From: Antedon bifida
Lineage: Eukaryota; Echinodermata; Crinoidea; Comatulida; Antedonidae
Length of the DNA: 64,000 nucleotides
Reading direction: 5' to 3'
NCBI GenBank assembly: GCA_963402885.1
Contig: OY727097.1
Location: 27,087,401 to 27,151,400 of the forward strand
The translations under genes and the position numbers were made by a program. The notes under the pieces are model-generated. The model was given only the letters and a program-made list of their open reading frames with translations, searched no databases and was not told where the DNA came from. Position 1 is the stretch's first letter. Every line of letters starts with the position of its first letter. Of this stretch, positions 2,185 through 57,855 are shown in pieces.

Positions 2185-5100
2185 TCATTTACTGATTGTG
2201 TGCGTTTTAGTGGGTCTAAACTCTTTCGTTTTAATCAAACGCTGTAGAATTGCGACAAAGACAAAGTCCAGCAATTCAACAATAGTAATCAAACTCATTC
2301 CACATATTAAACCCATGTTTCCTCCAAGTTCGGCTGTAAATAAGAATATTTTTGTTTACCTTTTAAAAAAATGCAAATCTTACAAATATAATATGCCTAT
2401 CATTTAGTGCGCTTTATATTGTAAACTGTATTTACTTTAGTGTTTGATTGCAGTGTCCAATTTAAAAATTAATATTGTTATTATTAAATTGTAGGCCTAA
2501 TAAATAGCAATAATTGTGATCAACTTACAAAGCAACTGGTTCACAGAGTATGACGGGACGAGTTCAACAACGGTCATGTCCAAATCTTCAAATGATATGC
2601 TAACCTGAAGAATGTTTTCCCTGAAATATGCACAATATTAGAGTTGAGATACATACTTTGAGACTGGGGCACAAGGTACGAAAAGTTATATAATCATATA
2701 TTTGCTCAAGCTTTTGCGGCTTATCTTTCGCTCTGGGAAGGGTATTTAAAGAAATGCTCCACACACGCCGTTAAACATGAAAGTGTATCAGCCCTTGTAG
2801 GCCTACTCGATGACAAAAAATGGTTTCATAAAGGTTGTACACCTTTACAGTTGCACCATCTCTTACACTTTTTACAAGCCGTCTGATTGTTCCAGCTACC
2901 ATGCCTTTACATTCGACGTTTGATCCAGTTGTGTGTCGGCCATACTTCTCACTATGACGCAGCGTAACGACGCGTACGTAAGCGCAACGCAAGTATTTGT
3001 CATTAGGTTATGTCGTGATTGATCAAATTATTTTCGTTGCGTACTCGTCCTAGTTGAAACTGATCCTAACTTACCTTACGTAATCCTTTGTATATCCATC
3101 ATTAATTTCAAATGATTGTATCGTCGCTGGATCCGGCCATAATGTGCTGGATGTACGTGGTTCATATGTTAGCTGATCACATGCTACTGGACAATCGCAT
3201 GAAACATTTCTATCACTAACAAAACGATCTGTAAAGTAAAAGTATTTACATTTTTTTTTTAAGTTAAATATTTTGAAAGGTTAAAAAATTTTCAACATAA
3301 CGTCAATGTGAATGTTCAGAGGACAATGAATGAATGTGTGCATATCCCTGTTCTAAATATACTTTAGTCTGGATGGCTGAAATAGAATTGTACAAGAAAC
3401 AGCAAACAGCGTTTTAGCATGTACAAAGAATACATTTTTTTCTCGGTTGAAGCAAGGAAATATTTTAGTTTGTTTAAGCTTACAGAGGTTAAGCCTAAAT
3501 GATGCGGATAACCTAACGTCCACAATGCATAATTTTTTCACCTTCAAGCATCAGTTAGACCTAGAAAGTCCAAAAATAGTAAAATTGACTGAAAGTCAAT
3601 GGTTGGTTGAATTTAACAGTTTACTTTTATCTTTTATTAGTTTAAACAGTATTTTTTTCTACGGAAGTGATTCACTTTATTAAAACTGCGAAATGGCCTA
3701 TTCAAATCGTTTTTATTATTCTTCATTTTTCATGTTTTTAAGGGATATACATCTTTAACTTACTATAAGCCGCATCACCACAATTAATGGTCTGTAGAAC
3801 AGTACATTCTGGAACATCACCTAAATAAAAAAGAAAATCAATGAAATGGTTTTAATGGACATTTGTCGAATTGGTTCAAAGGGGCTGAACCAAACCTAAC
3901 ACCGATTTGAGGCTAATCTGGGCACTTTATTATATCATATTTAGGGCCTTTGATGATCACCGAAAACATCAAGATAAATGTCGGTCATTATTTTTTTAAA
4001 TCATCGAAAACGTATCTGGAAAATGAAGAACGTTGAAACTTTGCGGATTATGACAATCTTTCAATTATCTTGATTCATTAAGAATAGACCGCCATAGCAT
4101 TCATTCTTTCAGTACAATATCAAACTCGAAATTATACCACGTATCTTATATATGGATACAAACAGTTTTTTTTCATATAGCTACCGATTTAGTGCTGAAG
4201 GAGACAAAATGACAAGACATGTAAATTGTGTGCTTTATGAGAAAATCAAGCTACTTTTTAAAAAATAGGTTGCAAACTATACTAACCTATCATATTAGTT
4301 AGTTTACATCCGCATTTTGCGACGACGTAATCAAATCTGCACTCCTCAATACAAAGAGCCTTAGTATATGTGCCTGTGTATTGAAGCTCTTTCCCAGTGC
4401 ACTTTGATGAGTATGGGTCTGGTAAAGACTTAGTCTAAATTGAAAAAAAAATTAGTTTATTTTTCCAATCTGTTTAGCAAGTAAATGTGAAATATAAGAC
4501 AAATTGTTTCTTTTCTCTGTAGAATATTTTGTAAAGGTAGTATTACTTACTTGTACTCCCTTTAAAGCAATTTCTGTATGAAAACCAGGAGATACTGAAA
4601 ATCCAAACGACTTTACAAGAGGAAGTTCATCTGCAGGATGTATCATCATCTGGAGGGGAAAAAAGATTAAGCTCTGTCTACATTATCAAACTAGTTTGAA
4701 AAAGTGTGATGTGCCCCAATATGACGTCATCGTGTCCATTATGGGCACATCACATGTTTTTGATTACTTTAAAATAGAGAAAATTTATTTTTTAATCTGT
4801 TATACATTCTTTGTTAAACGATTGCTATGTAGTGCGGTTTAATGAGCTGAAATAAAAAAAAATAATAAAAAATAATTAAAATACTAAAACTTGAAAGTTG
4901 CAAATAAAATTATTGGTATAAATGTTAAAACGTTGGAATATATTTGAATTTAAAAGATTGAACTAACAATAACCATCACTTAATAGAAGAAGCTAAGAAT
5001 TTGTTTTATTTTGATGAAAACCAGTCGACTGCATAATTATTTCTTCCATCTATAGTAAGGCTTTTTTCAATTGTAAACTTTGTCATATTCATTTTTACGG

Positions 5101-7070
5101 TTGTTACCCATTAATTTTATGATATTTTAATGATCACGTTATCTATAATTGCAGTTGCATTTGTTCTTTTGTATAGTGTTTAATATTTAACCTTGCCATT
5201 CCATTTGTAAACAGAAAAGGAAATAATTTTTCTTTGTGACTAGAGATCGACATACCACTTCGTATTGATCACCATCTAACCTGAGGTGAATTTAAAAACG
5301 TTTCAGAATATATCAATATTAAATCAGTGTTTCGTAAATAGTAGGGTGTGTCGAAAATGAAATGTTTACATGTAGATCAAAGGTGACCATAGCAACCTGA
5401 GCAAGTATTTCTTGTTAATGATGGTAACGATCAAGTTGAAACATACAAGAAGGGAATAAGAAAAATAGTGAAAAAACGTGGTCCAACAAAAATCTTACAT
5501 ATCTACAATGTTTCATTAAACATTAAATAGATGCCTGCATGTGGAACTTCAGCGTGATAGAGCCGCAGCGCAATGCCGTAGACGCAACGCAAAGACGTAG
5601 ACCAATGTCAAGCGACAGTTTCAATAATCGCTTGTGATTGGTCAAGTTACTTACGTTGCGCTCTATCTCACTGCGTTGTGTCTCTAGCGGGAACCATTAA
5701 ATGGAGGCAATGGTAAAAACGAATTGGCGTACCTTAATTCCTTTAATGCCTTGTTCATGACCAGTATGATCTGTATCATTGATATTAATCTGCAGGAATA
5801 AAGAACTTGAGACGCCAGCATGCGATACATTACGCGTCGTCTTAAACGTGTAACACACCCCAAAATCAATTATGTCAGTTGTAAAGTTGTCTGGCCCACA
5901 ATCTTCTAAACTCATCCATGTACACTTCGTAAGTAGGTCATTAATAGAGTGACTTGCTCTTAGGTAAAGCTCTGTAAGGTTCCAATGGTTTATATTAGAA
6001 AAATTTGCATAATTTCCACTGAAAAATGCGCGAATGTACTTCAATTCTTCGTCGGAGACCTGCGATTGACGCAACTGGTTGTAGTTGCAGAATGTAACGG
6101 CGGGAAACGCGATTTCGTCGTAGTGAGCAATGGATATCTTCGTTGCAACTGGGTAAGACCTGTAGTTTACAACGGACTCTTTCAATATGATAACAAGAAA
6201 GGCTAGCGCTATGAAAACCAGAATGCACCAAATATATCTGTAATAAATGTTTATTTAATTATTAATTCAAATTATAATAAAACAAATAAGCAGACCGTTT
6301 TTAGTGCGAGAGAAGAATACATTTTTGTTTATAGACTCGACACTATTGAAGGAAGTGTTAAAGTTGATGATGAATAGGGAAAACTTTTAATCCATGAAAA
6401 TATGAAGCGGAGATTTTATATTAAGCCTACCTCATTGAGATTATAGAAAATACTACTATTGCACTAAAGTTGTTTTTTTCTCCATTAAAATAGATTAGAT
6501 ATTTCAACACAATTAATGTTTGTTCATTGTTGAGGTTGGAATAACATTATTAAACAAAGATATATTGTATATAATTAAAACATTTGAATTACTAAATCCA
6601 TTCGAATAAGCGCCTAGTTTAATAGCCTCTATGATGGTAAATTTACACACAAACCAATGCCTAATACAAAGCATAATTTCTTAAATGGTTATATAATCGT
6701 TTACCATTGGCGTAACTGCTATGAGTGCTGACGGACTAAACTCAGAGGCCCCGGATCTTATGGGGGCCCCTTAGCAGTGTCCAGAGGAAAAAACAGGCAT
6801 TAAAATATGTCGAAAGGGGGCCTTCAGCGTTAGAAGGCTCCTGAGGCCAGTGGTCTCAGGCGTTGCGCCACTGTCGTTTACCTACCTTCTGGCAGCGCAG
6901 ATTGATCGGTTTCCGACGTAACGTATTCCGTGAAGAGTCGTCTCGCCCGCAAACGTACACACTTCATCAGTTAAGCTGGATTTTTCAGGCTGTTTTCCAT
7001 CATTGGAATCCGTTCTCGCTTCCCGATTGCTAAACGTAAACATCGGATAAACGTTACCGTTGACATTCAT
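2185..7070 (-). CDS. DEG/ENaC (ASIC-like) sodium channel subunit, gene A, 8 exons
   Basis: Exons joined in frame: 7070-6886, 6237-5733, 4649-4551, 4434-4287, 3820-3764, 3228-3075, 2620-2529, 2333-2185, giving 462 aa. An upstream in-frame ATG at 7115 would add 15 residues; I chose 7070 because it aligns with gene D. Features in order: HG motif (LHGIRYV) at the end of exon 1; TM1 (WCILVFIALAFLVII) at about residues 64-86; the post-TM1 signature FPAVTFCNYNQ; extracellular cysteines including FGVCYTF, CGC and CDCPVAC; TM2 with GLICGMSL near residues 420-430. Known: family members are trimeric Na+ channels, often gated by protons or peptides. The selectivity motif GxS reads GMS here where ASICs have GAS. 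Length is slightly below the ~510 aa of vertebrate ASICs because the extracellular loop is short. The ligand cannot be predicted. Confidence 0.92.
3590..3754 (-). mobile_element. MITE family 5 copy (one side) abutting the exon 5 donor of gene A
   Basis: Read on the minus strand it starts TTAA then AGATGTAT and shares CAGTTTTAATAAAGT and flanking sequence with the copy at 50109-50330. The TTAA is at intron positions +6 to +9 after the exon 5 donor (exon end 3764). The far terminus is not clear. Confidence 0.6.
4670..4762. mobile_element. MITE family 1, truncated copy in intron 2 of gene A
   Basis: Starts AGCTCTGTCTACATTATCAA preceded by TTA, and has the family interior GTGATGTGCCC and GGGCACATCAC. 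The right terminal repeat is lost. It lies 20 nt upstream of the exon 3 acceptor and carries an intact TGACGTCA (4722-4729). Confidence 0.8.
5548..5695. mobile_element. Degenerate MITE family 2 copy, intron 2 of gene A
   Basis: Palindromic stretch with the family 2 interior (GACGCAACGCAA, CGCTTGTGATTGGTCAAG, TTGCGTTG-like) and an eroded right end GCGGGAACC. No clear target duplication. A related fragment at about 2950-3050 sits in intron 6. Confidence 0.55.
6705..6873 (+). mobile_element. hAT-like MITE in intron 1 of gene A with perfect 8-bp target duplication
   Basis: 169 bp, ends CATTGGCGTAAC and GTTGCGCCACTG, flanked by TCGTTTAC at 6697-6704 and 6874-6881. Ends of the CAGTGGCG type and 8-bp duplications are typical of hAT elements. 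The right flank falls inside the intron 1 donor region of gene A (exon 1 ends at 6886). It is the same family and plus-strand orientation as 14907-15057. No coding capacity. Confidence 0.85.
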
Positions 7071-11756: not shown

Positions 11757-14700
11757 ATGGAAGCTTGGTCAAATGTGGACACATTTTCGGCAAACCAGGA
11801 AAAAACGAATGATAACCGGCTAAGTTTTAGGCCTACTAACTATATCGTGCATCCACGGGATGGCGTAAAGTCTGACGATGTTGGTAAAAGTAACTCTTCA
11901 AAGAAAAAACATATTATTGATGATTTGGAATCGTTTTCACAGAATACTACTCTACATGGGCTCAACTATGTTACAAGTAAGGAGTCGTCCACAGCTAGAA
12001 GGTATGTTTACCCGTCTGTCTGTTGGTCCGTTGCGTTTAAATTTGGCATTAAAACTTGCTGCTTTTAAATGCTATTACATTTAATTACTTTTTTTTTTAT
12101 GAATATCTGTATATATTTTTTGGGGGTGGTGTTGGAGGTGGCTGCCCATGTATTCAGAAATCAAATGTTTCTTTAAGGTAATTTATATTTTGTGGTTCAT
12201 TAAACTTTTCAAGCCGAATTAACATTGAATGTTCATGTTGCAAATTTAAAACACACAACTTGATTCAGATAGTGGAACACCAACTCTTGTAAGAGATGTT
12301 GATAATGTGTCCAGTACAGTACGCGTAATTTATTAAGCTAATTTTTATTTTTCTTGTTCGTTATATTCTTTCCTAAAAGGTTGGCTTGGACAGTGATTGT
12401 CACAGCAATGATGATTGTGTTCATATACATCGGGATAATAAACAATGTCCTACGGTATCTAGACCGTCCCATCAACACCATCATATCAATGAACTATCTG
12501 TTAGATATGGACTTTCCGGCAGTGACCATCTGTAATTACAACCAATGGAAAGCCTCCATTGTAGGACCAGACAATTTTAATATGTTATTTCTGCTTTCCT
12601 GGTCAAGCTTGAAGTATCCGGATCAAGAGACATTGGATATTATCAATGCAACTAAAAGAGATTTTGACTTAACTGATTTTAACATGACTCATCAGATTGA
12701 GGATATGCTGATGAGTTGCTCGTGGAAGAATGCTGAGAGATGTGGTCCGCGAGATTTTAGGCGAGTAGTGACCCAATGGGGTGTATGTTACACATTCAAC
12801 AACCCGGAAAACTCAAGCCAAATAAGGAAAGTAAAACAGTCAGGTAGTAATTATGGGCTAAGTATGCGACTGAAGGTCGAGCAAGAAGAATACATACATG
12901 GCGATAATACTGGAGCTGGAATCAGGGTGCGTAAAATTACTTTGCGTAACATAACTTTACCTTATGGTTTTAGGTTTAGGATAACGTTCGATAAATGTTG
13001 GGTTCATATACATACTTTACTTTAGGCAATTTATAATTAATTTGCCATATCAACAAAAAATATAAAAAAGAACAAGTTTTACATAAAGTAAATGAACTTA
13101 AATTCACTGATTCTATATCGTACTATTTGATTAAAACTCGTTTTAAATGTTATGTAACTACAATAATTTCCTAAAATTGTTAAGCTAAACTGAATATGCC
13201 GATATATTGTCTGACATTTTTAATTAACACGAATTTTGTTACCAATAGTGACCTTTCATTTTCATGCAACATCGCCACGCAACTACGCAGCTATTGAGTC
13301 TAATTACATTTCAACTCAATAGTTGTTCCTATTGTTGGTACACAGTTGATTACCTACTAGTCTAGGTTCTAGACTGAAATTAGTAAAAAGATAAATATTT
13401 TGACACATATGGCGTTTCATACGTATAATACATGAGCTCGTATTTTCAGACTAAAATCGAAACGCCGACTGGTGGACTAAGATAAAACGACAGAAATACA
13501 GACTTGGGGCAAGTCTAATTACATACTTGATATTGCACCATGAACGAGCAAAAAGCGTCATAATACCACTAACGAATTCAAAAATTCAAAATTTGTACCG
13601 GGCCATCAAGATGTATACTAACGTTATTAATATTTAAGAAGAAAGACGCCGAGCAATTGTGATAATTAAAAAACAAACAAAACTCTTCTTCTATACATAT
13701 ATTAATATCCTAATAACCAATTCCATAATTATACTTGTGTTATCGACTAGAAAAATAAATTGAATTTTACAAGGAGAGCAAATTGACCCACGTTAATAAA
13801 TCAAATACAAATTGGTAATGTCAACATTTGAAACAATATCACCAATTTAGGAGAATTTCCTAATTAAATAAAGATCGGTATCAGCACAAATTATAATGAA
13901 ATTATTAACCTATTTGACCTAAAATTCCATCAAAATTGAGGGGAAGACAAAGTCGACCCGACAACGACGGCGTGACAAAGATGGCGCGACAGCGACAACG
14001 CGACACAACGAAACGCGACTGGCGGCGTGACAACGACGGCGTGACAAAGATGACGCGACAGCGACAACGCGACACACAACGAAACGCGACTGGCGGCGTG
14101 AAAATGGAAACATTTTACAAATTGCGGTCATAATGACGATGCAAAATTTTAAGTCAATTATGTAATGACAGCATCGATAATTATTAGGATGGTAAATAAA
14201 CAATTTAAAATCAGATTTGAAAATTTATTTAATGACTACACAAAATACGGATGATGATGACGTCAACAATGACAGTGATAAAAGTGTATTGGATGACGAT
14301 GAAGATGATAACGCCACGATAGTCCGGGTAATAATAATGATAATAGTAGAATACAAAGACACTTTTATTTTTTGTCTTTAGGCACATGTGGCCAAGGATT
14401 ACCAATAGTAAATTAATCACTGTCCTATCAAATAGCCCCTGATACAGGGGCTATTTTGTGAACCAGTTCACTCCCTACTCTTCTCGAATGATGAATTCTT
14501 TAAAGTACACACATGTTATAACTGTGTACACTGGATCTATGGTTTATAGTCCTTATCCGAGAAGACTTGTTCCACCACCAGACCTATGAGTGAGTCGGCC
14601 TCGAACCCTTGCCGATATTGTTGGCTATTTAGGTACGGTAAACGGCGCCCCTGCCTTAATCACGCGGCCATTTGACTCGTGATAAATATAACGATGATTA

Positions 14701-17700
14701 TGATCATGACGATGGTAATAACATGTAACTACAATAGTTTATAACGGTGACGAGAAATTATGTTGAAGCCTATGATTTTAATTTGAAATATATTTTACAG
14801 ATAATGGTACATGAGCAAGGACAGATACCATTGGTAAAATCCTTAGGGTTCTCCGTCTCCCCAGGGTTTGAATCTCACGTTGGAATGAGACATACAAAGG
14901 TAAGTACAGTGTCGTAACGGCTATGACCGCTCACTGGCTAAACTCAGAAGACATTAAAAGAAGTCGAAAAGGGCTAAAAAACGACCTAAGTCTCCAGTGT
15001 TGGAGGGCTACTTAGGGTCCCTAAACCAGGGCCTCATGCCTCTGCGTTACGCCACTAGGTAAGTAACAACTACTATCAAGATTCTGTGACGTCTGTATGA
15101 ATATTCTGAAGGATATCACAAAGAGATTATACCCATCTCCTCCAACAACATTTTAAACACGAGCGTCAAATATTTCGTCAACGATGTGTGTGCTGTCACG
15201 TCACCGATGTGTGTGATGTTACGTCACCGATGTGTGTGCTGTTACGTCACCGATGTGTGTGATGTTACGTCACCGATGTGTGTGATGTTACGTCACCGAT
15301 GTGTGTGATGTTACGTCACCGATGTGTGTGATGTTACGTCACCGATGTGTGTGATGTTACGTCACCGATGTGTGTGATGTTACGTCACTGATGTGTGTAA
15401 TGTTATGTCACCGATGTGTGTGATGTTACGTCACCGATGTGTGTGCTGTTACGTCACCGATGTGTGTGCTGTTACGTCACCGATGTTATGTATTACAAAT
15501 GACTGTTTTTTTAAATCATTTTTTAACTACAGAAGAATTTCTCCTTTGGAATATCACCATCAATGAGACACATTCATTTGAATTCGATTTTCATTATCAA
15601 TAATAGGTGTATTTTTATTAGGCCGACACCGGTTTCAATTCCATTAATGTATACCGCGCACAGGCTTTGTATTTAACGTATCTCCCTAATGTATTTCAGT
15701 TCAATACATTGATTGACTTCGACACCTAATCATAATGCTTCCAGACCTGTAGCTATACAGGCTGCAACCATTTCTAAATATCGACCAATAACAAATATGG
15801 CGCCGTAATGATCTTTTTAAATACTTGTGCAGCAATGATGCCTTAATGTGATGTATATAGTCTTGTTTTTATAATGCATTTCATTTAAAGGCCAATTTAC
15901 AGACGAGTGGTAATGTTCAGCAATAACGGTAGATAAGCGGAAAGCAAACATATAGAAGCTATGTTATTTACTACAACGCGGAGCGGATGGGCAGTTAGCG
16001 CGGAGCGGATGGGCAGATAGACAGGTTCTACGTGGAAAAAGCGGGAGGGGGATAGGGGGGGGGGGGCAAGCACGCGGTTTTCCGCTTACCGTTTCCGCTC
16101 GTCTATGTAAATTTGCTTTTATGCAGAAATAAATAACAGTATCATAAATCTAATTTGTGTAAATACTTTGGACGATGGTTTCCCTCAAAAGACAGCTGTT
16201 TATTGTCACACAAGACAAGACAAGACATGATACAGTACGGGAATCGGCTGTCATACCATCAGACGCAAACTAATAGTCACACCCCTATTCCCATCGATCA
16301 TGATTAACATGGGTCTCGTTTATTTTTCTGTTGTATTAGGTTGAGAATTTACCATACCCCTACCCGTCAAATTGCAGACAAAGGGCTTTGAAATACGGAC
16401 CGTACACGGCACAAACCTGTAATTATGAATGCTATGTGGATTACGTCATCAAAAACTGTGGTTGCCGGGATTATAGAATGCCAGGTTTGTTTATTATTAT
16501 TATTTATATGCAATTATAAATCAGACATAGGCCTAACCAGCCCCCTAAGCTCTTCATAATATGGATTTTTAAAAAGGCGCGCATCAAACGGCTCCTATTA
16601 TGGATACAATGATAACCCCTATTATGGTTGAGTCCAAACGAAGCCCCTATAATGAACAGATTTCACCAACCCTATTGGAAAAACGGAAGGGGGTTGGGAT
16701 TGGTGAAATGGATATAAGAGGAGAGAATGCCATTTGCCTTTTTAAATAATCACCTGTTATTATTTACATAAATGTAATCTTTCAGGAGACGTGCGAATAT
16801 GCGACGTTTACGAGACAATAACTTGTGTAAATAATGCAACGTGTAAGTATTAGTGATTTGATTTGATGAAATCAGACAACGTAAAATGTATTACTGGAAA
16901 TCCGTACCTTCGTGTATTTATTTTCATAAAAAAAACCCAACGCAACACCGACTGTTCTAAAGCGTGGTTCCCACTATCGACGTAACGCAACGCAGCGACG
17001 TATTGACGTGCTGTATTGCGTGATCACAAGTGGGAACCGACGACACAACAATGCTGCTAACATCGTTTGGTTTCACGCAGGTTTGATTTCACGCAGGCGG
17101 GGCAAACACAATTAATGGAAGGGCATTTTCTTACGTTGCGTAGGTCGCATTACGTTGCGTCACCAGTGGGAACCAAGCTTAAGCGGGGTCCGTTCAAGAT
17201 CATAATTGTTTCTTCGGGAAAGTTAGTGATCTTCACCACAAAGTTAACCATTTATATTGTTGTTTACAATAATATGGTAAACAAAACTATGTTTAAAATA
17301 AATCTTTTCAAATATTTTAAAAACTTTTCAGTTGATTTTATTTTGGAGGGGGAAAGGTGTTCCTGTCCAACCGCGTGCTCGACTGGTGTTTATGACGTCA
17401 GAGTTTCGTCAACATATTGGCCCTCTTCTTACGTCACTAATATGTATTTAGGACCGATGAACGTTTCAGAGACCGAAGCAAGGTGAGTCTCTCTTAACAA
17501 CACCTCGAAAAGAAGCCCATGAGCTTCTTTTTTTCGTAATCTTGGTTGAACCATGGAGGAAATATCTGTATATTTCCTCCATGGTTGAACGGGCTTCTAC
17601 GAGGTTTTACTGTATTTTGTTTCTTATCATCTGTTATCATATTTATCATTATCTTCCTCGTTTCAATAACTATCATATACCATATCATCTTCATAATTAT

Positions 17701-19316
17701 CTTTCCAAAGGCAACTTCGTCATAATAATGGCGATATTCATAAAAATAATCAATATTTCTTTTGTTTTTATCTTCGTCACTTTTCTTTTGATCAAAAATG
17801 TGATGTGCCCATATGGACACGATGACGTCATATCACTACTTTATTTGGGCACATCACAATTTGTTGTCAAACTAGTTTGATAGTGCGACCGAGCTAAGTC
17901 ACAAATGACGTCATCAAATAAATTTAATAACAATATCCTTTAGCAGTATCATTATCAGAATCACACCTTAATCAATATCATCTTAACCTAGGGCCTAATG
18001 TATGTCAAATTGATAAATATTGACCGAGTATTGTGTTTGGATTTTTGAGCGAAATTAATTTGCGAAGTGAGAGGAATAATGATACTAATAAAAGGTCAAC
18101 AAATAATCAATGACAAATAATCAGCCTTGCTCGTTTAATGTTGAAGAGTAACATATCAATTAAGGGCCGATCTACTTGGTATAATGTGATACTTATAAAG
18201 AATAATTATGAATTGAATAATATTGAAATCAAATCAACTTACCCAAGCTAAGCAGGCCTAGTTGGAACTCCTTCCGGTTGCGTTACGTTGATAAAAGGCC
18301 GACGTAACGTCATTCCTTCCCTGTATGCTTCGTTTCGTTCTACAGATTATTGCTGCTATCCAAGCATTGCAATACTTAAATTTGTCTCAGCTAAAATCGT
18401 ATTTTAAACATAGCACTTGTTTTCGATATTCTCAAATGAACACTAGCAGTATTAATTGTAAGCAATTAGCAGTAAACAAGGTCATTACTGTGTAATTTCC
18501 ACATTTCTGATGAAGCAACAACTGAAATATTCCAAAAACTGGTCATTGGGACAGGCCGAAAATTACGCATGCGCAATCAACAACACGTGATGGTCTAAGC
18601 TCTGTCTACCCTATCAAACTAGCTTGACAAAAAATGTGTGATGTGCCCAAATATGGTGGTAATATAACCAAATATAGTAGTGATATGACATATATGGGCA
18701 CGTCACATAAAGTTTGATAGTGTAGACGGAGCTTTAGACTAGAAGCTTCACTCAACGCAAACATTTATGATGTACTGCTTAGTAGGAACATTCATGTACT
18801 TTTTATGAAATCAGTGTATACAGTATATGAAGCAACATTTTGATATTTAGATCTTAACGCTATTTCGATATTATTTTACCAGAAAAAATTTACTTGACGT
18901 AAAAATATATTTTGAAGAGTTGAGTTTTGAGAAGGTAGAGCAGATACCCGCCTATGACCTGCTGAGCTTATTAGGTAAAGTGATTTTGTTTTTTTAACTT
19001 TTAATTTAAAAAATTATTTTAGGCCAGAGTTATTCCTTACCGTACAGGGATTTTGGCTGAGAAGAAATTAATGTTTTCGTAAGTGTTCTCAATGTGCTAA
19101 GATTGAAGTACAATTACGTAAGATAATGGGCAAACTGACCAATTACATAACTATAAACTTTTAAAACATGAGTTACTAATCTAATAGGCCTAAATATCTT
19201 TTTCAGGTGACATCGGCGGATACATGGGTCTACTTTGTGGCATGAGTTTAACAACTATATTTGAATTTGTCGACTTTTTTGTCTGTGTTTTCAACAAAGG
19301 TTGGAAAATCCGATGA
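11757..19316 (+). CDS. DEG/ENaC (ASIC-like) sodium channel subunit, gene B, 8 exons
   Basis: Exons joined in frame: 11757-12001, 12380-12926, 14801-14899, 16340-16484, 16786-16842, 17332-17482, 18883-18974, 19207-19316, giving 481 aa. N-terminal cytoplasmic part of ~80 residues with TTLHGLNYV; TM1 (VIVTAMMIVFIYIGII) at about 86-106; FPAVTICNYNQ; WGVCYTF; SVSPGFESH (exon 3); CGCRDY; CSCPTAC followed by YWPSS; the pre-TM2 strand KNLLDVKIYFEEL; TM2 with GLLCGMSLTTIFEF; stop at 19314. The tail after TM2 is short (KGWKIR). Lengths of exons 3, 5 and 7 equal those of A and C. It is divergent from gene A across 4.6 kb. The exon 3 donor is duplicated by a hAT-like insertion (see findings). The gating stimulus cannot be inferred. 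Confidence 0.93.
13358..13520 (+). mobile_element. Dispersed repeat R1, copy 1 (intron 2 of gene B)
   Basis: Contains TTCTAGACTGAAATTAGTAA and ends CAGACTTGGGGCAAGTCTAA; both ends can fold as small hairpins. A second copy at 58856-59010 keeps the full order with ~85% identity by eye. No coding capacity; class unknown. Confidence 0.75.
13955..14101. repeat. GC-rich tandem duplication (~70 bp x 2) in intron 2 of gene B
   Basis: Two copies of a unit with GACAACGACGGCGTGACAAA and GCGACTGGCGGCGTG. The base composition is much richer in GC and CpG than the surroundings. The short open frames across it on both strands are by-products of the repeat. Confidence 0.8.
14437..14690 (-). mobile_element. 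tRNA-derived SINE, copy 1 (intron 2 of gene B)
   Basis: On the minus strand it has an A-box-like TGGCCGCGTGATTAAGG, a B-box-like GGTTCGAGGCC, then a body with AACAAGTCTTCTCGGATAAG and TATAAACCATAGATCCAGTG. The same body follows a tRNA-like head at 56625-56850. The 3' part ends in a hairpin, AGCCCCTGTATCAGGGGCT. Confidence 0.75.
14907..15057 (+). mobile_element. hAT-like MITE inserted at the exon 3 donor of gene B
   Basis: 151 bp, ends CAGTGTCGTAACG and CGTTACGCCACTA. Flanked by a perfect 8-bp duplication GGTAAGTA at 14899-14906 and 15058-15065; that octamer is the last exon base plus the splice donor. Same family as 6705-6873 (shared CTAAACTCAGA and CTATGA). Confidence 0.9.
15180..15487. repeat. 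23-bp minisatellite, ~13 copies, intron 3 of gene B
   Basis: Unit GTTACGTCACCGATGTGTGT plus GAT or GCT, repeated with very few changes. Each unit holds TTACGTCA, close to a CRE/ATF half-site. Copies abut directly with no spacers, so it is not CRISPR-like. Confidence 0.95.
15889..16117. mobile_element. MITE family 4, copy 1, intron 3 of gene B
   Basis: Left end AGGCCAATTTACAGACGAG after TAA; right end CGCTCGTCTATGTAAATTTGC. The inner part has CGGTAGATAAGCGGAAA and TTTTCCGCTTACCG as inverted arms, plus a G run near 16055. Related to 33780-33990. Confidence 0.75.
16961..17179. mobile_element. MITE family 2, intron 5 of gene B
   Basis: Ends AGCGTGGTTCCCACTA and GTGGGAACCAAGCT, flanked on both sides by TAA. 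The interior has GACGTAACGCAACGCAGCGA. TWA duplications are characteristic of PIF/Harbinger elements. Confidence 0.85.
17546..17590. repeat. 20-bp-arm inverted repeat with 4-base loop, intron 6 of gene B
   Basis: TTGAACCATGGAGGAAATAT, then CTGT, then its reverse complement with one mismatch. It lies inside a longer imperfect inverted repeat whose outer part (CTCGAAAAGAAGCCCATG and GGGCTTCTACGAGGTTTTAC) recurs at about 45400-45425, so it is probably a small foldback element. Confidence 0.8.
17790..17895. mobile_element. MITE family 1, left-truncated, intron 6 of gene B
   Basis: GTGATGTGCCCATATGGACA, an intact TGACGTCA at 17823-17830, then AACTAGTTTGATAGTGCGAC and GAGCT. Confidence 0.8.
18598..18733. 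mobile_element. MITE family 1, full copy, intron 6 of gene B
   Basis: AGCTCTGTCTACCCTATCAA to TTTGATAGTGTAGACGGAGCT, flanked by CTA and TTA. Interior with GTGATGTGCCC and CATATATGGGCACGTCACA. Confidence 0.88.
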
Positions 19317-29606: not shown

Positions 29607-31727
29607 CAGCGACGATGATGAGAATGTTAATAACGATGTAATATAAAAGTATACCAAGTTTTACCCGTGTTTTTCTCATTGCAATGTGAGTTTCAAATCC
29701 AGGTGACAGTGAGATACCGAATGAATTCACCAGTGGCAGATGTCCTTGAGGGTGAATCAACAACTAAAATAAAAAGATAAAGGCCCATTTACACTAGGGC
29801 GATAACGATCGACGATAAAAAGATAAAGACCCATTTACACTAGGGCGATAACGATCGACGATAAAAAGATAAATATGCATTTTTCATACCTAAAACAAAA
29901 GAATTTAAAAAAGTTTTCATCCTAGAACTATAGGATTATCATCTATGCTGCCTTTGACGAAAATAATATTTCCACACGTCCAATCAAATGACGTCATGAT
30001 TAGTAAGAGCAATAATATCGTTACAATACAACGATTTTATTGTTTTTATTGATCATGACGTCATTTGATTGGATTTTCAAAAATTTTATTTTTATCAAAT
30101 ACAGCATACATGATTATCCTACAGTTCTAGAACAAAAACTGTTCTAATTTCTTTCGTTTTATCCAAGAAAAATGTATGTTTATCTATTTATCGTCGATCA
30201 TTAGCCTATCGCCCTAGTGTAAATGGGCCTTAAAACTGTTAATTTTATGCTGAAATATTGTATCGTTATATTTTGAACATACAGTACCGAGAATAGAATT
30301 TGAAAGTAAAGAACGTGTACACTAAACGGTCATTTATCCAACATTTGACAGCATTATAGTGTGCTGATGATTTTCATAACATAATATTTCTATTCTCTTA
30401 AAAATTTATATATTTATAATCTTATGCCTACTACCTTAAATCCAGCTCCGGAGTTTTCACCAAAACTATATTCGTACTGTTGGACATGCAACCGTAACAT
30501 CAGGCCGAACTCACTCCCAGTTTGCCGGGCCCTCAATGCTTTACCATCTGCCACGTTGTTAAACGAGTAGCATACGCCGAAATCTGTTATGATAGTCGAA
30601 AAGTTGCGAGGATCACACGGCTGCACTCCTTGCCATGAGCAAAACAGTAGGATCGTTTCGATTTGATGTGCAAGTCTAGTCGCCGAACTCGTCATGTTAA
30701 TGGATTCATAATTACGTAATGCTGCAGTTACTGTATCCCAGTCGACCCCATCCGGGTCTAAAATATAAGTGGATTTTGACATGAGTTTGATGACGGTTGA
30801 TGTGCTTTCGTCTAACTCAGACAGACGAAACTGGTTGTAGTTGCAAAGCGTAATGGCGGGAAATTTCAAGTCATCGACGTAGTTGAGGCTCATCACAGTG
30901 TTGATCGGACGATCGAAGTATTTTATGATGCTTACAACAATACCACTATACACTAACCATGACATCATTCCGACTACTATTAAAGTCCATGTAACTCTGT
31001 AAAAAAAAGGAGGTTAAACAGTAATTTATATACGAAATAAATGATTTACATCAAATACCGTACAACTTGGTAATGTTGTAAAAGGGATAGTGTAGGCCCT
31101 ATGTATGTGTTGAGCAATACATCGCGCCATCGCTACTATGTATTCAGAGGGTCTTTAATAGCTATAACTCTTTCATTTGTATTCATACCACCGCATGTGA
31201 AAGAGCCCGTTCAAAGTTCGCGCCGCTGTTCGAATGAATAAGCGAACCAATGAGAATGATAATTCTTCGAAGTAGCTTAGGCCCAGAGAAATCTGAAGTT
31301 AATTGATCAAATATCTGTCTACTCCGACGTAATTTTACTTTATGCACATTTGAGAATACTTAAAAAGACATTCTCTCAGAAACTCGGAAGGAGAGGCTAG
31401 GCCTACATTACAAAATACTGACCTTCGGGCAATAGATGAATCTTTACCCGTTATGAAGTGTAGACCATGTAGAGTAGTGAGCTGTGAAAACTCTTCCAGA
31501 TCACTGATCACATACTGCAACATATCATCGTCACTGTCGCTGTCACTACTGTCATCCTTCTTCTTCTTTTTAATCTGCTTTGCCTCCTTAATATGTACTC
31601 TTTGTGGTTGTTTCTTTTTCTTTTTCTCTTTCGCAATAGGGATTGAGTAGACTATAGTGGATATAGCGTCCTCCTGTTTGATGGGTGGTTTCTCCGCCCA
31701 GGCATACATGTTTATTCTAGGCAGCAA
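26477..31727 (-). CDS. DEG/ENaC (ASIC-like) sodium channel subunit, gene C, 8 exons
   Basis: Exons joined in frame: 31727-31423, 30996-30435, 29763-29665, 28890-28746, 27829-27773, 27480-27330, 26958-26867, 26598-26477, giving 510 aa. The cytoplasmic N-terminus is long (~100 residues), with lysine runs (KEKKKKK, KKKKK) and an acidic serine run (SSDSDSDDD) before LTTLHGLHF; A and B lack these. TM1 (VGMMSWLVYSGIVVSII) at about 109-127; FPAITLCNYNQ; FGVCYSF; CGCREY; CSCPTAC with TFWPS; FLEIRIFFEEM; TM2 with GLLCGMSLTTIFEFFDLL; stop at 26477. A downstream ATG in exon 1 (MYAWAEK) is an alternative start. Exons 3, 5, 6 and 7 match gene B in length. Exon 7 (92 nt) is weakly marked and was placed by homology to B. 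Confidence 0.92.
28060..28248. mobile_element. MITE family 2, intron 4 of gene C
   Basis: AGCGTGGTTCCCACTAGAAC to CTAGTTGGAAACAAGCT, flanked by TTA on both sides. The adjacent 27976-28056 is a second, degenerate copy. Confidence 0.85.
28478..28585 (+). mobile_element. Retroelement 3' tail, intron 4 of gene C
   Basis: TGTGCTCTGCTCAGCTCC, then GTATGTGGAAAATAAA and the tail TTGAATTGAATTGAA. Tails of a few repeated pentamers are usual for LINE or SINE 3' ends. Confidence 0.4.
29001..29215. mobile_element. MITE family 2, intron 3 of gene C
   Basis: AGCATGGTTCCCACTAGCGA to TCGCTAGTGGGAACCACGCT. Very close in sequence and length to 16961-17179 (shared ATTTCACGCAGGCGGG). The flanks do not match (ACA and TTA). 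Confidence 0.85.
29473..29607. repeat. GAT/ATC trinucleotide microsatellite, intron 3 of gene C
   Basis: About 45 GAT units with a few GGT or CTA interruptions. Poly-Asp and poly-Ile reading frames across it are artefacts. Confidence 0.97.
29781..30230. mobile_element. MITE family 3, 450 bp, intron 2 of gene C
   Basis: AGGCCCATTTACACTAGGGC to GCCCTAGTGTAAATGGGCCT, flanked by TAA at 29778-29780 and 30231-30233. The left end (~47 bp, with CGATAACGATCGACGATAAA) is duplicated in tandem. It starts 17 nt upstream of the exon 3 acceptor. Confidence 0.9.
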
Positions 31728-43833: not shown

Positions 43834-46800
43834 ATGGTAACCATAAATTTGTATTGTATTGTTATAATGTACAATTTAGATAGGTTTGCTAGCCTTGTTT
43901 TGGGATCATCTCCTAAATGTTGTAGGATCTAGGCCTAGTAGGCCTATCTGTAGGTACTGATGATGACTGTTGTTGTAGTCTCCTACTAGGCCTACTAAAA
44001 AGGCAGGATTCAGTGGTTAGTTAGGCCTAAATAAACATAGGAATAGTAGAGTCCAGGGATGATAGTGATCATATAGGTAGCAGACACCTAGGTTCATCCC
44101 AGACCTCTTCCAAGTCTAGTAGTTTTGATATCCAGGATAATTAATAAATAATAAATTAATAACTTGCCAGCCAAAGCCCTACTTGAAACTATATTCACTA
44201 TTTTTGTTGGTTTTATTTATTTTCAGTCTAAAGCAGTTTCAGTCAAAGTTGTTGCAAGATGCCGACCATTTACAGACACAGAAAATGGAAAAGGAGCAAC
44301 AAGAATCATTAAGATGAGTGGTGATAAAACAACAGTGCAAAGTCCACAGGGAGGATCTGGACAGGTACAGCACCAGAAGAAGTTGTATCACATTACTACC
44401 ATATTTGGGCATATTACTACCATATTTGGGCATATTACTACCATATTTGGGCATATTACTACCATATTTGAACCCATCACAGCTTTTACAATAGGCCTAG
44501 TAGCTGTGTAACTATAACCCCTGTCTGACTGACAGTAGGATACTGGTTGTGTGTTCATTTTCTCAAATACATATTGTATTGTAGTTTGAAATTAAAATTT
44601 AATTTTTACCTTTGCAGGAAAACACATTTGCACTGAGCTCAAGTTATTTCTGGGATGCTAAATCAGTAAGTATAATACACATATTTAGGGTGGTGGGCTA
44701 ACTCTAGCTCAATACCCACATTTTTTTCATGACTAAAACAGTATTACCGTAATAATAATAAATTTTAATAATTTTATGTTATTCCTTCATTTTCGTAGAT
44801 TCAGATTTATAAAGAAGAATGCGAACCATTGTTAAAAGAAGCGCTTTCAGGATACAACGTAACGATCATCGCATCCGGTCAGACCGGTAGCGGCAAAACA
44901 CACCTCTTGTCGGGCACTGATGATGACCCTGGAATGGTGCCAATGGTATGATTTTGTTCCGCTTACCCAAAGTTACAATTAACAAAACAGTCTCCTACCA
45001 CTAGAGTTAATCGCAACATAATGTTTAGATGTGTATGGTAATATTATAGCAATATGTAAATAAAGAGATATTCGGTTTTCTTTTATTTCAGTTGATAAGA
45101 AGTCTTTTCAAGCATTTGAACTCAGATTCTAAGAAAGATAGTTTTGTGACGGCTTCATTTCTAGAGGTAAATTTATTATAAAATACAGTATTGTTTTGTT
45201 TTTCTGTTACATTTTACTGTATTCCATAATTGTACTATTATTTAAATCTAAATTTCCAAAACATCTTTGCAGATTATGGATGAAAACCTGACTGACCTTT
45301 TGAATCCTCATGGCAATGAGATGAAAATACGACAACATCCACAAGTTGGAATGTAAGTTACTTTACACCATTGATAACCAATAATTGTAATACCGTAAAC
45401 CCATGGGCTTCTTTTCGAGGTTTTGCAGTAACCTTTTTAAAAAATTCAACTATTTATGTGTGGGTGTACTACCTACCTACTGTAACATGACACAGGTGTA
45501 GGAAGTCCATATCATTTTTGAAGATCTTTTTAGAGGTCTAACACTATCAGACTATTTTGCAAAAAAAAATGTGATGTTCCTAAATAATGGTAGTGATATA
45601 CCCAAATAATGGTAGTGGTATGACATCATCATGTCTGTATATGGGCACATTATATTTTTTTGTCACATAAAGTTTGATGGTGTAGACAGAGCTTAAGACA
45701 AAGATTTAAATTTATTTTATTTCCTTTTGTTTATAGATTTGTTGATGGTTTGTCTGAAATAGTCGCTACAAGTAGTGATGAGCTGACAGAGTTGTACAAT
45801 CAAGGAAACAAAGCTAGAAAGATGGGCACATCAGATATCAGAGCTCATCGACAAAGGTGAAGAAATAGAAAATGTTTAGTGTTTAATATATGCCTACAGT
45901 TAATTTGCAGTTTTTATCATTGAAGAATGCCCTATGATAATGTTGGCTGATTTCTTATCATTGCACCATATCTCTTACTATCTTATAAAATAAATGTGAA
46001 TGATAATTAATCTTCAGAGCTCATGGGTACTTCACTATCACCGTAGAACAACGTGAAGAGAATAGCACGCATTGTTTGAGAAGCAAGATTTTATTTGTTG
46101 ATCTCGCTGGTAAGTTTTTTTTAGTTCGCAATGAAAGTTATAACAATTCACAATTAAAGTAACAATTCACAATAAAATAGTGTTTCCTATAATTATATTT
46201 TAAATTGTTCTATAATTTTTAGGCTCCGAGGGTGTACAAAGCAAGGACTTAAGGTATGTCTGTATGACTGATTTCTATGGAAAAACAGAAAACAAAACAA
46301 AAAAGCTTTACAATAGATTATTTATTAAGTTAAAAATTAAAGGCTACAAAATAGTAAATATAAAGTAGGTGTTAGGCTTTGCATATTAATTTTATGTTTT
46401 TATCCCTCTAGCCTCAGTGCTTTGAACAGAGTTATAACAACACTCGGTGACCCACGAAAGAAGGGAGGTCATGTGCCCTACAGAGACTCCAAGATGACAA
46501 GACTCCTACAGGTAAATAACATGCATTTCAATGTTTCAATTCATTTCTAAAGACATTTATTTATGTCTATGAGACAATAGTAAAAAAAAAAAACAATGAC
46601 AAATTGAAATGTAAAATAATGGGACGCAGAATTTACTTGAATGCTTTGCTCTAAAGCTCTGTCTACACTATCAAACTAGTTTGCCCATATATGGTAGTGA
46701 TATGACATCATCATGTCCATATATGGGCACATCACATTTTTTGTCACATAAAGTTTGATAGTGTAGACAGAGCTTAAGAATATACAGTGTATAAATCTCA

Positions 46801-49800
46801 ATTTATGGTTTTTCAGGACTCGTTGGGTGGAAATGCCAAAACGCTGTTGTTTGCTGTTGTATCTCCTGCTGATACAAACTACAATGAAACAATTGCCACA
46901 CTTCAAATGGCTCAAACAAGTCACAACATCTCCAACAACGCCAAGAAGAACGCTGTAAGTTAAACCTGATTTAAAACCAACATATAGGTTGTCAGAAATC
47001 ATTGTAAATGGGGACAGGTTCACTGTAAATGAGTTGCTTAAAAGGGGTTGCAGAATCATACTCTTCACCCAAGTTTACAAATGGGTACCTGGTAAGGTCA
47101 AGACACAACTTTACGCTGATTAGCTGCATTATGGGAGTATGTTTTCATATGTGTTTAATCCAGAAATGACCAGGGTAATAATACAGTAGACCCATGTACA
47201 GTGCTTAGAGGTTTCACAACATTAAGCTCTGTCTACACTATCAAACTTTATGTAACAAAAAATGTGATGTGCCCATGGACAGCATATCACTACCATATTT
47301 GGGCATATCACTACCCTATTTGAGAACATCACACTTTTTTGGTTTTTGACACTAGTTTGATAGTGTAGACAAAGCTTTAGGTACTTTATCAATCCAGGAT
47401 ATTATTATACAAACTTCTTCATCTCAGTAAAATGTTACTCCTTTGTTTTGATTTTGAAGGACGACAGCACAAAAATGCTTAATGAGCTGCGAGATGAGAT
47501 ATCCCGTCTGAGAGAGAAGTTGGCCACCAGTAATTTGAATGAGGCAGGAAGCAAAGAAGATGTTACTAGGATGCAGGTACGATTTGGGGTGCAGCTTACC
47601 TGATTCTTAGTGCTGTATCTCCACACATGTCAATATTTATCCATGGAAGGTTAGGTTAAGATTTAGCGTCTATGATACAGGCCTCGCATCTGAAACACAT
47701 AAGATGCTGTATTGCAGAAATTTCCTATGATACTGGACTGTAATTTAGACAGGTTGTGGAGTTTTAGATGGAGTCTTGAGTGTTATAGTTTAAGATGAAT
47801 ACTTGAATCGAGGCTGGAAGTGAAAAGTCTAGTTTGTGAGAGGAAATCTACTAATAATTTCAACAACAGGGGAGGCAAATGTCCTTTTAGAATCAGCTAG
47901 ATGATTGTAAATAAAACATCAGATTTTTATTCTGCTTTACAAAAAAAATCTCTAAGGAATGTACCAATTCCTATAATAAATCATAACATGTGATAACAAA
48001 CACTTTACTTTGGAATGAAACAATTCCTTTTCGTTCCTCCTCATTTAGGAACTTATTAAAGACCTGCAGATAGCAAAGAAACAGACATGGGAAGAGAAAG
48101 AAAGGTTGTCCATACAATATGAAGATGACAGGAAAGTGAACCTTGCAAATAAGGTAGTCATTCTTTTACAGCTTTTCGTAATCAAAGGCAGATTATGTCT
48201 GAAAAAAACCCAAATGTTTACAATAATGTATTATTGAATTTTGTAGGGTATCTTGCAATATGTGATGGGAGACAGTATGAGGAAAGGGAATAATGAAGTC
48301 CAAGAAAAACTGCTTCTTATGCAGAAAGAAAAAGACCAGGTATTATTCAATTATAAGATGTGCATCCCATGTGGAATGCATTGCAATTCAAATAAAATCA
48401 CAGTCCTTGGTTTAGACTTAAAAATTAGTTACTCCAATCTGAGAATGATTTTGCTCACTATGGTTTTTACTGAATGTAATACTAAATATGGAAACTGTAT
48501 GATATATTTTAGTTGCAGGAGGAATACAAAGAAAAACGGAAGCTGGTGGATACTATGAAAGAAAACCTGCAGATAAAGATTGTTGATTACACTAAAATAG
48601 CGGAGAAAGGTAAGGCACACGCAATGCAATGCATCATAATATGCAACTTTACAACTTAAGTTAGTATAGTCACTACAGTAGAATATACCAATATTAATGA
48701 TGTGCAAGGGTACTTACCTGAAGCAGCTGGGAAATGGCAGTTGATTCAATCTGAGAGAGGATGTGCTGGCCCAAAACTGCTACATACTCTTAAGCTCTGT
48801 CTACACTATCAAACTTTTATATGAAAAAAATGTGATGTGCCCATATATGGACGATGATGATGTAATATCACTCCCATATTTGGGCACATCACACTTTAGT
48901 TTAGACAGAGCATTATGTGTAAAAAAGTACAAAATAATTATTTCTTCACATTTTTAGACAACAAAGGAAATGAGGCAGAAACCAAAGCTAAAGTTAGCGC
49001 AATCCATGAACTGAAGGAAAAAATCAAGAAAGAAAGTGAAGTGGTAAAAGATGTAAAGAAAAGGCTAAAAGAATTACAAGACAAACAAAAGAGAGAGAAA
49101 GAGGTAGATACATGAATCATTCTCATATAAGAAAGGAAATAAAAATATATATTTTTTTCTGTTTGTTCACTATAGTAAGGAGCTTTTAAATTTGCAAAGA
49201 CCTATGACCTACGCATATTGTGTCATAGGTCGTAACATAACTATTTCCTAGCAGTCATAGGTCATCCAAGGCAAGTAGAAAGAACTACATAATAAGCTAT
49301 ATATAGCCATTGGCACTAACAAAAATGATTTCATTTTTGTAGGAATTACGAGCACAAAACCGAGATTTGCAATCAAATCCCAAGATGAGAGCTATGGTAA
49401 TGGAAGAAGAACGGAAGAGATTGGAAATTGAGAATACCGCCCTCTTGAAAGAAGAACTGGAACGAATGAAGCTAGAAGTGGACCAGCAGAGAGCAGAAAT
49501 ACAAGTAGATTATTATTATGAAGTTTACCTCAAATAATATAAATTTTGTAGAAATAAAGATGCTCAAATTATCCTTGTACTCTCCCAATACCGCACTTTC
49601 TGAAAACTAGAAACTCTCCCAAAACCAGACTTTTCTCGAAGTCCAAAAAAAAAAAAAATTCTGAATACCAGGCTTTCTGGAAAACCAGACATATTCAAGC
49701 AAAACTGACAACTCCTTGGCTACTGGACTGCTTTTGAGAACACCTTGTGTAGTATGTTATTATGCAAATATGCAAATGAGTCCACCTGGAATAACTGTAG

Positions 49801-54861: not shown

Positions 54862-57855
54862 ATGGATGAAGATGAGATCATTCAAGTGTCCCTTCCACCT
54901 TATGAATTTCCTCCCCCTTGGATACCACCAGAGCAGGTAGGTTTTGTGATATTTTTTATCAAACTAACCACCCGATTTCTAAAATGAAAATATTGAAATT
55001 AATAATAATAGACTTTTTGCCCGCTCTCTAAAATCAAGAACAAAACTGAAAAAAATACTCAGTAAGGCCGCCTAAACATAAAATATGTTGAGAGTTAAAT
55101 ATATAATCTGTGCTATAATTTAATGAATGATGATCGCAATTAATTTATTAACTTATTGTTATTATTTTCATTTTACAGAGACGCAGCCATCCTGATTATG
55201 CTAGTACTTTGAATCAATTTCTTTCTCGTACAGTTCGTTTCGCACGATCAAGACAGACAAATCAGGTGCATATGACTTGGCTAATTGTTTAAATATAAAA
55301 TAAAGTAATTTTTTGAAAACTCATCTGCATCAATCAATTTTCTCCACACAACAGCTTATAAATTATAGAATTCTTAACACAATGTTTTCATTTTTAGAGA
55401 AACAATACCTCTCCTTTTAAGCTCTGTCTACACTATCCAACTTTATGTGACAAAAAAAATGTGATGTGCCCATACAGTATATGGACATGATGATGTCATA
55501 TCACTTTTTTGTCAAACTAGTTTGATAGTGTAAACAGAGCTTTAGGCTATATTAATGTAACCCTCCAATATATCACATAGACATAACATCAGATAGAGGG
55601 AGGTATAATAATAACCAACATCATGCATTATATGTTATAGTAAATTACATATCTAAATACCCTACTGAAAAAAATCACAGTTGGCTAAAGCATTTTAAAC
55701 ACAATTATTTTCTTAAAATAAGTAACTATTATTATTAACAGTGTCATGATTTCTTTTTGTCATATTTTAGTTTGGTTTTCACATAAAAGGTGGCAAGGAG
55801 CATGAGCTGGGTCTTTATGTGTCAAGGGTGAGTGAAAGGTTACAACATTAAATGAACTAAAATGTGTACCAAATTCTTTACCATACATACAGTATGTGTA
55901 ATGTATGTACACAGGACCAACAGCTTTGCGTCCCATCCAAAGGACAAGGGAATCAGAATAAAGTATCTTGACTGAAGGTTACAAGAAATATGACACAGAC
56001 AGGTCTCGAACACATGCTTCTCACATGCTAGTCCTAATAACCCTGACCGTTATGCCATACTTCTCAACTCTAATTCATAGTAAGTCTGTACCTGGTAAGA
56101 ACATAGTGGTCACTTAGGCCTACAATTTAGATAAAATCGTAATACTCCGATTTTTGGGGATTCATTTAAAGATGTTGGTCGATCTGCAAACACCTGCTGG
56201 CTGGTATGATTCATCAGGTTAGATGAAAACTGACCTAAACCCAAGACACCTTTCCATCTGAGCACAGATAACACTGATTTGTGCTTATAAAAAGACACAG
56301 TCACAATAATATTTTGTTTTTCTGTAGGTAATGCAAGACTCAAATGCATACCGTGTTGGTTTGAGAGTGGCAGACAAGATTTTAGTTGTCAATGGTTATA
56401 ATTTTGAAACATTAGATCATGATGAGGTATAAACAACTGACCAATGATATTAAATTGTTAAATATATTGGTTTAAACACTAAGGAGACACTCTTATAGAT
56501 ATATAGGATTCGTTTCTGTGTTTTTTTATTTATTTATTCTTTATACTGGGTAGCCTCTTCAGTCTAAGACTGTTCTCTCAGAGGGCCCAGTGTATATATA
56601 TAGGATGAGTTTGTGACATTGGCTGTATGTGAACTAGTACCCCGGGGTAACCCCTACTCGTTTTGAAAGATGTACTAGGTTCTTTAAAGTGCACATGAGC
56701 CAGATGTGTACACTGGACCTACGGTTTATAGTCCTTATCCAAGAAGACTTGTTCTACTACCAGAACCATGGAGTGAGGGAGACTCAAACCCTTGCCGATG
56801 TTATGGCTATGTATTACGTTTCCACTGTCTTAAACGCTCGGCCACTCCCTCACTTCACAAATTAAATTATAATGAAATATGTGAGTGAAAAAAGTTTAAG
56901 CTAAATGTGCGAGATCCTCATCGTAAATACAAATTAAATACAAAATAATCTTTAAAAAGTTCAAAAAATGAGACATGAAGTCTTGTAATATTTTTGTGAT
57001 GTAATATATTGATTGTAAAATATCAAGTGTTAGGAAAATGATATACTTGGATTACGTCTTACAAGATCAATTTATATAAACAGATACAATTGTTGTGAAA
57101 TAGATACAATTTAAGAAATTTGACTATGTCATTCTGTAAGAGAAAAACATTGATAATAGAAAAACAGAAACAATCATTCTATATGTATACTGAATTTAGA
57201 ATGTTTCTAGGTTTCAGAAAAATCCATAATTTATATTTCTTGATTTTATTGATAAATAACATAAACAATGATTTTTAAACATCAACACTGGAGTTTTGCT
57301 TGGTGTTCGCCTCAGCGATGTGTTCCAACGTGATGTGAAAGGAGTATACATAATACAGAATACTCCTCGTTTAGGACACCCTTATTCGGGGAAACCCCCA
57401 TTAAGGGGACACTTTGTTGGGTCCTAAAAGTGTCCCCTAAATAGAGGTTCTATTGTGTAGTATGTTCATATTTTTTTTTATTTTTTCAGGCAGTTTCTGT
57501 TTTAAAAGAAGCTAGAGATGTAGAAATGCAAGTGAAATATTTTCCTTATGGTAAGATAATACAGATAGTAGGACCTCTATTAAGGGGACACCTTAAGAGG
57601 GGTTGTTTCAAAAGAAAAATTCTACTGTATATCAATTTAATACAAATGTTCAGATATTAAACTTATTAGTCTTTTCTGAAAAAAAAAACATTGAACAAAT
57701 ATTTCTTATTTTTGTTAGGTTATGATAAGCTTTGTCGGATGTCAGAGTTACAGCAGAAACGATTAGATTATCAAGAATATGAGGAATATGTTAAAAAAAA
57801 TTCAACCAATAAAATAAACAGCACTCTACGAGACAGTAGCTCAACCCACTCTTAA
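54862..57855 (+). CDS. PDZD11: PDZ domain-containing protein 11 (PDZD11), 6 coding exons
   Basis: Exons joined in frame: 54862-54936, 55179-55265, 55771-55827, 56328-56426, 57490-57550, 57719-57855, giving 171 aa (human 140). N-terminus with LPPYEFPPPWIPPEQR followed by HPDYASTLNQFLSRTV, as in the family (PAYENPPAWIPPHER, HPDYNNELTQFLPRTI). One PDZ domain from about 45 to 125: carboxylate loop FGFHIKGG (canonical GLGF-type), VSRVMQDSNAYRVGLRVADKILVVNG, and the helix start DHDEAVSVLKEA. A C-terminal tail of ~45 residues, basic and Ser/Thr-rich, is longer than the vertebrate tail. Known: PDZD11 binds C-terminal tails of Ca2+- and Cu-ATPases and PLEKHA family proteins at the basolateral membrane and junctions. 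The MDEDEIIQVSLPP start replaces the human MDSRIPYDDYPVVFLPA. Confidence 0.95.
55420..55541. mobile_element. MITE family 1, PDZD11 intron 2
   Basis: AGCTCTGTCTACACTATCCA to TTTGATAGTGTAAACAGAGCT, flanked by TTA on both sides. Confidence 0.92.
55985..56075 (-). mobile_element. tRNA-derived SINE head, PDZD11 intron 3
   Basis: On the minus strand: A-box-like TATGGCATAACGGTCAGGG and B-box-like TGTTCGAGACCTG, followed by TGTGTCATATTTCTTGTAAC. Different tRNA head from the other two SINEs. Confidence 0.65.
56625..56850 (-). mobile_element. tRNA-derived SINE, copy 2, PDZD11 intron 4
   Basis: On the minus strand it starts GGGAGTGGCCGAGCGTTTAAG (Ser/Leu-type A box), has the B box GGTTTGAGTCTCCC, then AACAAGTCTTCTTGGATAAG and the shared body up to about 56640. 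Same family as 14437-14690. Confidence 0.85.

Follow-up and report, generated by a model that had tools for sequence, protein, structure and literature searches.

A hAT-type MITE at a splice donor of an acid-sensing-channel-like gene in Antedon bifida duplicated the donor that it hit

The window analysed here is a stretch of 64,000 nt of Antedon bifida DNA (GCA_963402885.1, OY727097.1:27,087,401-27,151,400, forward strand), and positions are counted within it. It contains the acid-sensing-channel-like genes A, B and C, and the insertion lies in gene B. Spliced from six inferred exons, gene B gives 414 residues. These match Pfam ASC (PF00858) at 5.6e-74 (250.2 bits against a cut-off of 23.6) and acid-sensing channel 1 structures at 4e-48. 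By these matches, the host gene qualifies as a member of the DEG/ENaC (Pfam ASC) family, and its exon 3 is, by homology, a real exon. Gene B looks complete, with its last exons outside the 414-residue model; the start of a later exon, with a second membrane segment, lies near 19206. The parts of the gene that matter here are the following.

11757..12001, plus strand: exon 1 of gene B (inferred)
12380..12926, plus strand: exon 2 of gene B (inferred)
14801..14899, plus strand: third exon of gene B (99 nt), starting and ending in phase 0 and translating to IMVHEQGQIPLVKSLGFSVSPGFESHVGMRHTK; 12 homologues of it were read in the tandem array
14900..16339, plus strand: intron 3 of gene B, 1440 nt, containing the MITE
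16340..16484, plus strand: exon 4 of gene B, which continues the frame of exon 3 when the inner donor is used

Intron 3 also holds a minisatellite shortly after the MITE (15180-15485), with a unit of about 23 bp (GATGTTACGTCACCGATGTGTGT type, judged by eye).

Exon 3 ends in AAAG at 14899, and the intron opens with GTAAGTA from 14900 (below, a slash marks such a junction). A first-pass annotation of this DNA had placed a 151-bp element directly behind exon 3, flanked by an 8-bp duplication consisting of the last exon base plus the donor. Both the element and the duplication are confirmed in the sequence at these places.

14899..14906, plus strand: first copy of the target site duplication, GGTAAGTA, the final exon base plus the inner donor; GT at the equivalent place in 13/13 exon copies
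14907..15057, plus strand: MITE copy, 151 bp, with an internal loss of about 36 nt relative to the 187-nt family consensus; 11.3% divergence over the aligned positions (17 of 150)
14907..14919, plus strand: 5' terminal inverted repeat, CAGTGTCGTAACG
15045..15057, plus strand: 3' terminal inverted repeat, CGTTACGCCACTA, with final base A where the consensus has G
15058..15065, plus strand: second copy of the target site duplication, GGTAAGTA, the outer donor; a perfect 8/8 match to the first copy

The repeat finder reports an inverted repeat of 12 nt (92%) between the ends of the MITE. It also reads the direct repeat as 9 nt, AGGTAAGTA, because the target copy ends in A and the family consensus in G. 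The true duplication is 8 bp, as seen in the sibling copy (TCGTTTAC) and in other family copies. The duplication boundary first given thus holds for the length of 8 bp, on which the siblings agree, and departs from the literal direct repeat of 9 nt. A different true boundary of the element, which had been named as a finding that would overturn the reading, did not appear; the sibling copies fix the boundary. There is a transposon insertion at this donor, far beyond chance.

The family to which the element belongs has a second member in the window.

6705..6873, plus strand: sibling MITE, with its own perfect 8-bp duplication TCGTTTAC at 6697-6704 and 6874-6881

The target and this sibling align locally with a score of 96, and the maximum over 500 shuffles is 57.5. 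A search of the genome with the target element gave at least 53 matching stretches, with 40 of 581 candidates scored. We examined 41 copies, namely the 39 best non-self places in the genome plus the two window copies. In 33 of these, both ends lie within 4 mismatches over 24 positions, and the other 8 were dropped for poor ends. The consensus of the 33 end-resolved copies is 187 nt long with ends CAGTGGCGTAACGG...GCGTTACGCCACTG. Their 8-bp flanks are identical in 14 copies, within one mismatch in 25 and within two mismatches in 29, counts that favour agreement, since the choice of ends by the script leaned partly on the duplication match. The exact 11-base family end has 1031 matches in the genome against 79 for a reversed control, and a 14-base family end has 225 against 0; these are counts of ends, up to two per element.

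The family elements are short, lack coding capacity and are present in many copies. We take short terminal inverted repeats of the CAGTG/CAGNG type to be the hAT end motif, and the consensus ends fit it. By its 8-bp duplications and the consensus ends, the element fits a non-autonomous hAT-type MITE, and the hAT-like identity proposed at first is supported by the family termini and the 8-bp duplications of sibling copies. Sequence of hAT transposase is present in the genome, as 39 matches to Dimer_Tnp_hAT. Another short inverted-repeat family, with ends like AAGCTCTGTCTACACTATCAAACT, occurs in the window at 18597-18734, 46650-46779, 47219-47382, 55419-55542 and 58113-58264; 143 inverted pairs were found, and these five copies are among the longest 25.

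Gene B sits in a tandem array of acid-sensing-channel-like genes (G000:C10:27.05-27.49 Mb) that includes genes A, B and C of the window. We read 13 copies of exon 3, from ten array stretches plus the window; a further array gene (L088) gave no exon 3 match. Twelve copies are on the minus strand, and gene B alone is on the plus strand. The two neighbours within the window are as follows.

4551..4649, minus strand: exon 3 of paralogue A, single donor CAA/GTAAGTA, without the element
29665..29763, minus strand: exon 3 of paralogue C, single donor CGG/GTAAAAC, without the element

Shortly upstream of the paralogue C exon there is a long imperfect palindrome (29849-30203), with two 174-nt arms that are 80% complementary.

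A GT donor is present at the identical phase-0 place in all 13 copies of exon 3. A second GTRAGT within 250 nt of the donor is absent from 12/12 element-free paralogue exons, and two exact family-end patterns have no match within 250 nt in the 12 copies other than that of gene B. Because the 13 copies share the donor, and the 12 without the element have a single one, the intron is older than the insertion, and the donor next to the exon is ancestral. By this comparison, which is with tandem paralogues and not with an empty site of gene B itself, the inner donor (14900) is ancestral and the outer donor is the copy produced by transposition. The one donor at the same phase-0 place in all 12 element-free exons upholds the original suggestion that the donor was hit and copied, with the first donor kept whole. 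An element-free orthologous intron that already carried two GGTAAGTA copies had been listed as the observation that would speak against it, and none appeared among the paralogous introns examined. Gain of the intron by the MITE, that is, an introner, is rejected, the intron position being common to 13/13 exon copies.

In the account that we favour, the MITE landed on the 5' splice site of an intron that was already old, in a member of a tandem array of acid-sensing-channel-like genes. By coincidence the 8 bp duplicated at the target took in both the donor and the exon base before it, and the insertion therefore copied the donor instead of destroying it. The spliceosome would mainly use the inner donor (14900), and the MITE and the second donor would be removed along with everything else in the intron. 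With the inner donor intact and the element spliced out with the old intron, the insertion should be close to neutral. A minority of transcripts may come from the outer donor and would then stop after five extra codons. We consider it very probable that this account, in which the insertion duplicated the donor, the inner donor is used and the effect is near-neutral, is the right one. The inner donor joins exons 3 and 4 in frame, leaving the ASC protein unchanged. With a generic splice matrix, not trained on Antedon bifida, the score is 11.86 for the inner donor and 10.40 for the outer one, against 5.6-12.3 for the remaining five donors of gene B. Counting against the account, the outer donor is also strong, the second best among all GT sites scanned in intron 3. 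The insertion, its boundaries, the duplication, the donor position common to the paralogues and the intact reading frame are shown by the sequence; predominant use of the inner donor in RNA and near-neutrality of the insertion are what we infer.

Some transcripts might use the outer donor, so that nonsense-mediated decay would lower or tune expression of the channel. The outer TAG/GTAAGT, at 10.40, exceeds four of the five other gene B donors. The extension that it would add is 159 nt, a multiple of three, and reads VSTVS followed by a stop as the sixth codon, 141 nt before the outer junction. This bears out the first description of two identical donors 159 nt apart, with an outer reading that stops five codons in. 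A stop 141 nt ahead of the junction would favour nonsense-mediated decay. Against such a poison extension, the inner donor scores higher and marks the place where the exon ended ancestrally. The RNA fold of 14890-15075 does not exceed those of shuffled sequences in stability (z 0.05) and so suggests no structural switch; a structure hiding a donor is rejected on the same value. On balance, we think it rather improbable that the copied donor acts in this way. The identity of the two GGTAAGTA copies despite the 11.3% divergence of the element is at best a weak hint of constraint on the outer copy. Identical copies flank 14/33 of the family copies, and selection on the outer copy is unsupported.

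The outer copy could also serve as an acceptor, a point absent from the first-pass annotation. Since the element ends in A and the duplication begins with G, the outer copy gains an AG, and at 15056-15065 this acceptor AG is fused to the donor GT as TAG/GTAAGTA. The arrangement delimits a further feature.

14900..15058, plus strand: putative nested GT-AG intron, 159 nt, whose AG (element A plus duplicated G) abuts the outer donor

On such a reading, 14900-15058 would be removed first and the remainder afterwards, leaving the mRNA unchanged. Joining 14899 to 15059 would restore AAAG/GTAAGTA (product CATACAAAG/GTAAGTAAC), and the MITE would amount to a nested intron that removes itself and leaves the original donor exactly as it was. 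The juxtaposed AG/GT of a recursive splice site, or zero-length exon, is found in the sequence. By the generic matrix, the AG at 15057-15058 has an acceptor score of 6.22, ranking 6 among 60 AGs of intron 3 and falling inside the range of 3.4-7.2 for the five acceptors inferred in gene B. The sequence CTCAT, which resembles a branch site, occurs 22 nt upstream of this AG, and there is a CTAAAC at 15021-15026. However, the AG hinges on one base at which this copy departs from the family consensus, and the pyrimidine tract is no more than moderate. The A that ends the target copy is also found in 3/40 other copies (L014, L027, L037). According to PMC8605326, recursive sites within Drosophila introns require that a cryptic exon with a donor of its own follow downstream. 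Among the GT sites further along intron 3, the highest score is 4.94 (in the minisatellite), under all six gene B donors; the paralogue C donor scores about the same (4.95), so this point is indecisive. Two-step removal by recursive splicing seems to us unlikely, and it is just as doubtful that the MITE is a self-removing intron. In the literature that we searched, none joins recursive splicing, a transposable element and a target site duplication, and the cases found are related, not identical.

Members of the family and its relatives were also found at other donors. Searches for family ends followed by donor-like sequence returned the target, L049 and L050, with 0 in the controls. A one-mismatch search on the other side gave 14 hits, 4 of them with intact GTRAGT (6 hits in its reversed control), and is the source of L092. 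The reciprocal search gave 13 hits, 3 with intact ACTYAC (L049, the target and L094), and 1 in its reversed control. Hits without the intact hexamer were left out of closer reading, with the exception of L093. At L050 (G000:C9:3710736-3713754, reverse strand), a MITE lies in the donor of an LDL-A exon (PF00057, 5.8e-6), where the donor C/GTAAGTG is followed by the MITE copy and then by CGTAAGTT, the duplication being CGTAAGTG and CGTAAGTT. At L092 (G000:C9:27384700-27385300), the donor belongs to a fibrinogen-like exon (PF00147, 2.3e-5) that ends ACA/GTAAGTA, and a divergent 271-bp relative sits precisely in this donor between identical copies of AGTAAGTA. At least three coding-exon donors in the genome, as judged from homology and splice signals, are therefore hit (the target, L050 and L092). 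In all three, the duplication takes in one exon base and seven intron bases.

Four further places were set aside. L049 (C15:8397412), with duplication GGTGAGTA and GGTGAGTT in the same register, is a possible donor hit whose candidate 22-residue exon has no Pfam family. L091 has GTAAGTG at one end, without a clean duplication. L094 has GTAAGTC in one copy only, about 60 nt past a likely donor, and so is not at a donor. L093 (G000:C12:8658250-8658850) is a relative with GGTAAATA at both ends and no open exon seen upstream. L093 ends in A before its duplication (CACTA/GGTAAATA), as does the target.

It is very unlikely that the transposase prefers donor-like sequence and that the family thereby targets splice sites, the three coding-exon donors in one register notwithstanding: GTRAGT or ACTYAC at offsets 0-2 occurs 3 times among about 952 family ends (1031 minus 79 in the control), against 2.2-2.9 donor-like duplications expected (P of 3 or more 0.37, with ends treated as independent), the search that yielded L092 had 6 hits in its reversed control against 14 of its own, and by a hand estimate from 29 duplications the register that the three share is also where GTRAGT is most to be expected. 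Donor hits are about as frequent as chance predicts, and a preference is unsupported at a sample of about 952 ends.

Several known systems resemble parts of this arrangement, as far as the cited portions of the papers describe them. hAT MITEs such as Mar of Drosophila (PMC3517528) are likewise short and non-coding, with terminal inverted repeats, an 8-bp duplication and many copies. Maize Ds/Ds1 is an element of the Ac/Ds system that also makes an 8-bp duplication and supplies the host gene with extra splice sites, and in its exonization bypassing the host donor often brings an early stop (PMC5432752). The splice sites of Ds1, in that account, are inside the element, whereas the extra donor of gene B is a duplicated host site. 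Introners from DNA transposons can co-opt splice sites from the target duplication, but in the part cited they create a new intron (PMC9860276), and the gene B intron is old and present in 13 paralogous exon copies. Ratchet points have an acceptor fused to a donor, a layout that gene B has at the level of sequence; those covered in the cited part of PMC8605326 are mostly in long introns, unlike the 1440-nt intron of gene B. Donor-splitting stwintrons have an intron nested at the donor of another intron, as in the gene B layout, but those in the part of PMC12403724 cited are without target duplications, which the gene B element has.

The event is real, well defined and mostly ordinary, in that a hAT-type MITE duplicated the donor that it hit. 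It provides a clean natural case of a transposon striking an essential splice site, most likely harmlessly, because the target duplication restores what the insertion breaks. It also provides testable material, with identical tandem donors around a 151-bp insert and at least three such cases in one genome. In one of them, gene B, an acceptor adjoins the copied donor, which is how a recursive splice site born of a transposon would be expected to look. If the nested intron were true, transposons would have a way of giving rise to recursive splicing and to donor-splitting twin introns in animals.
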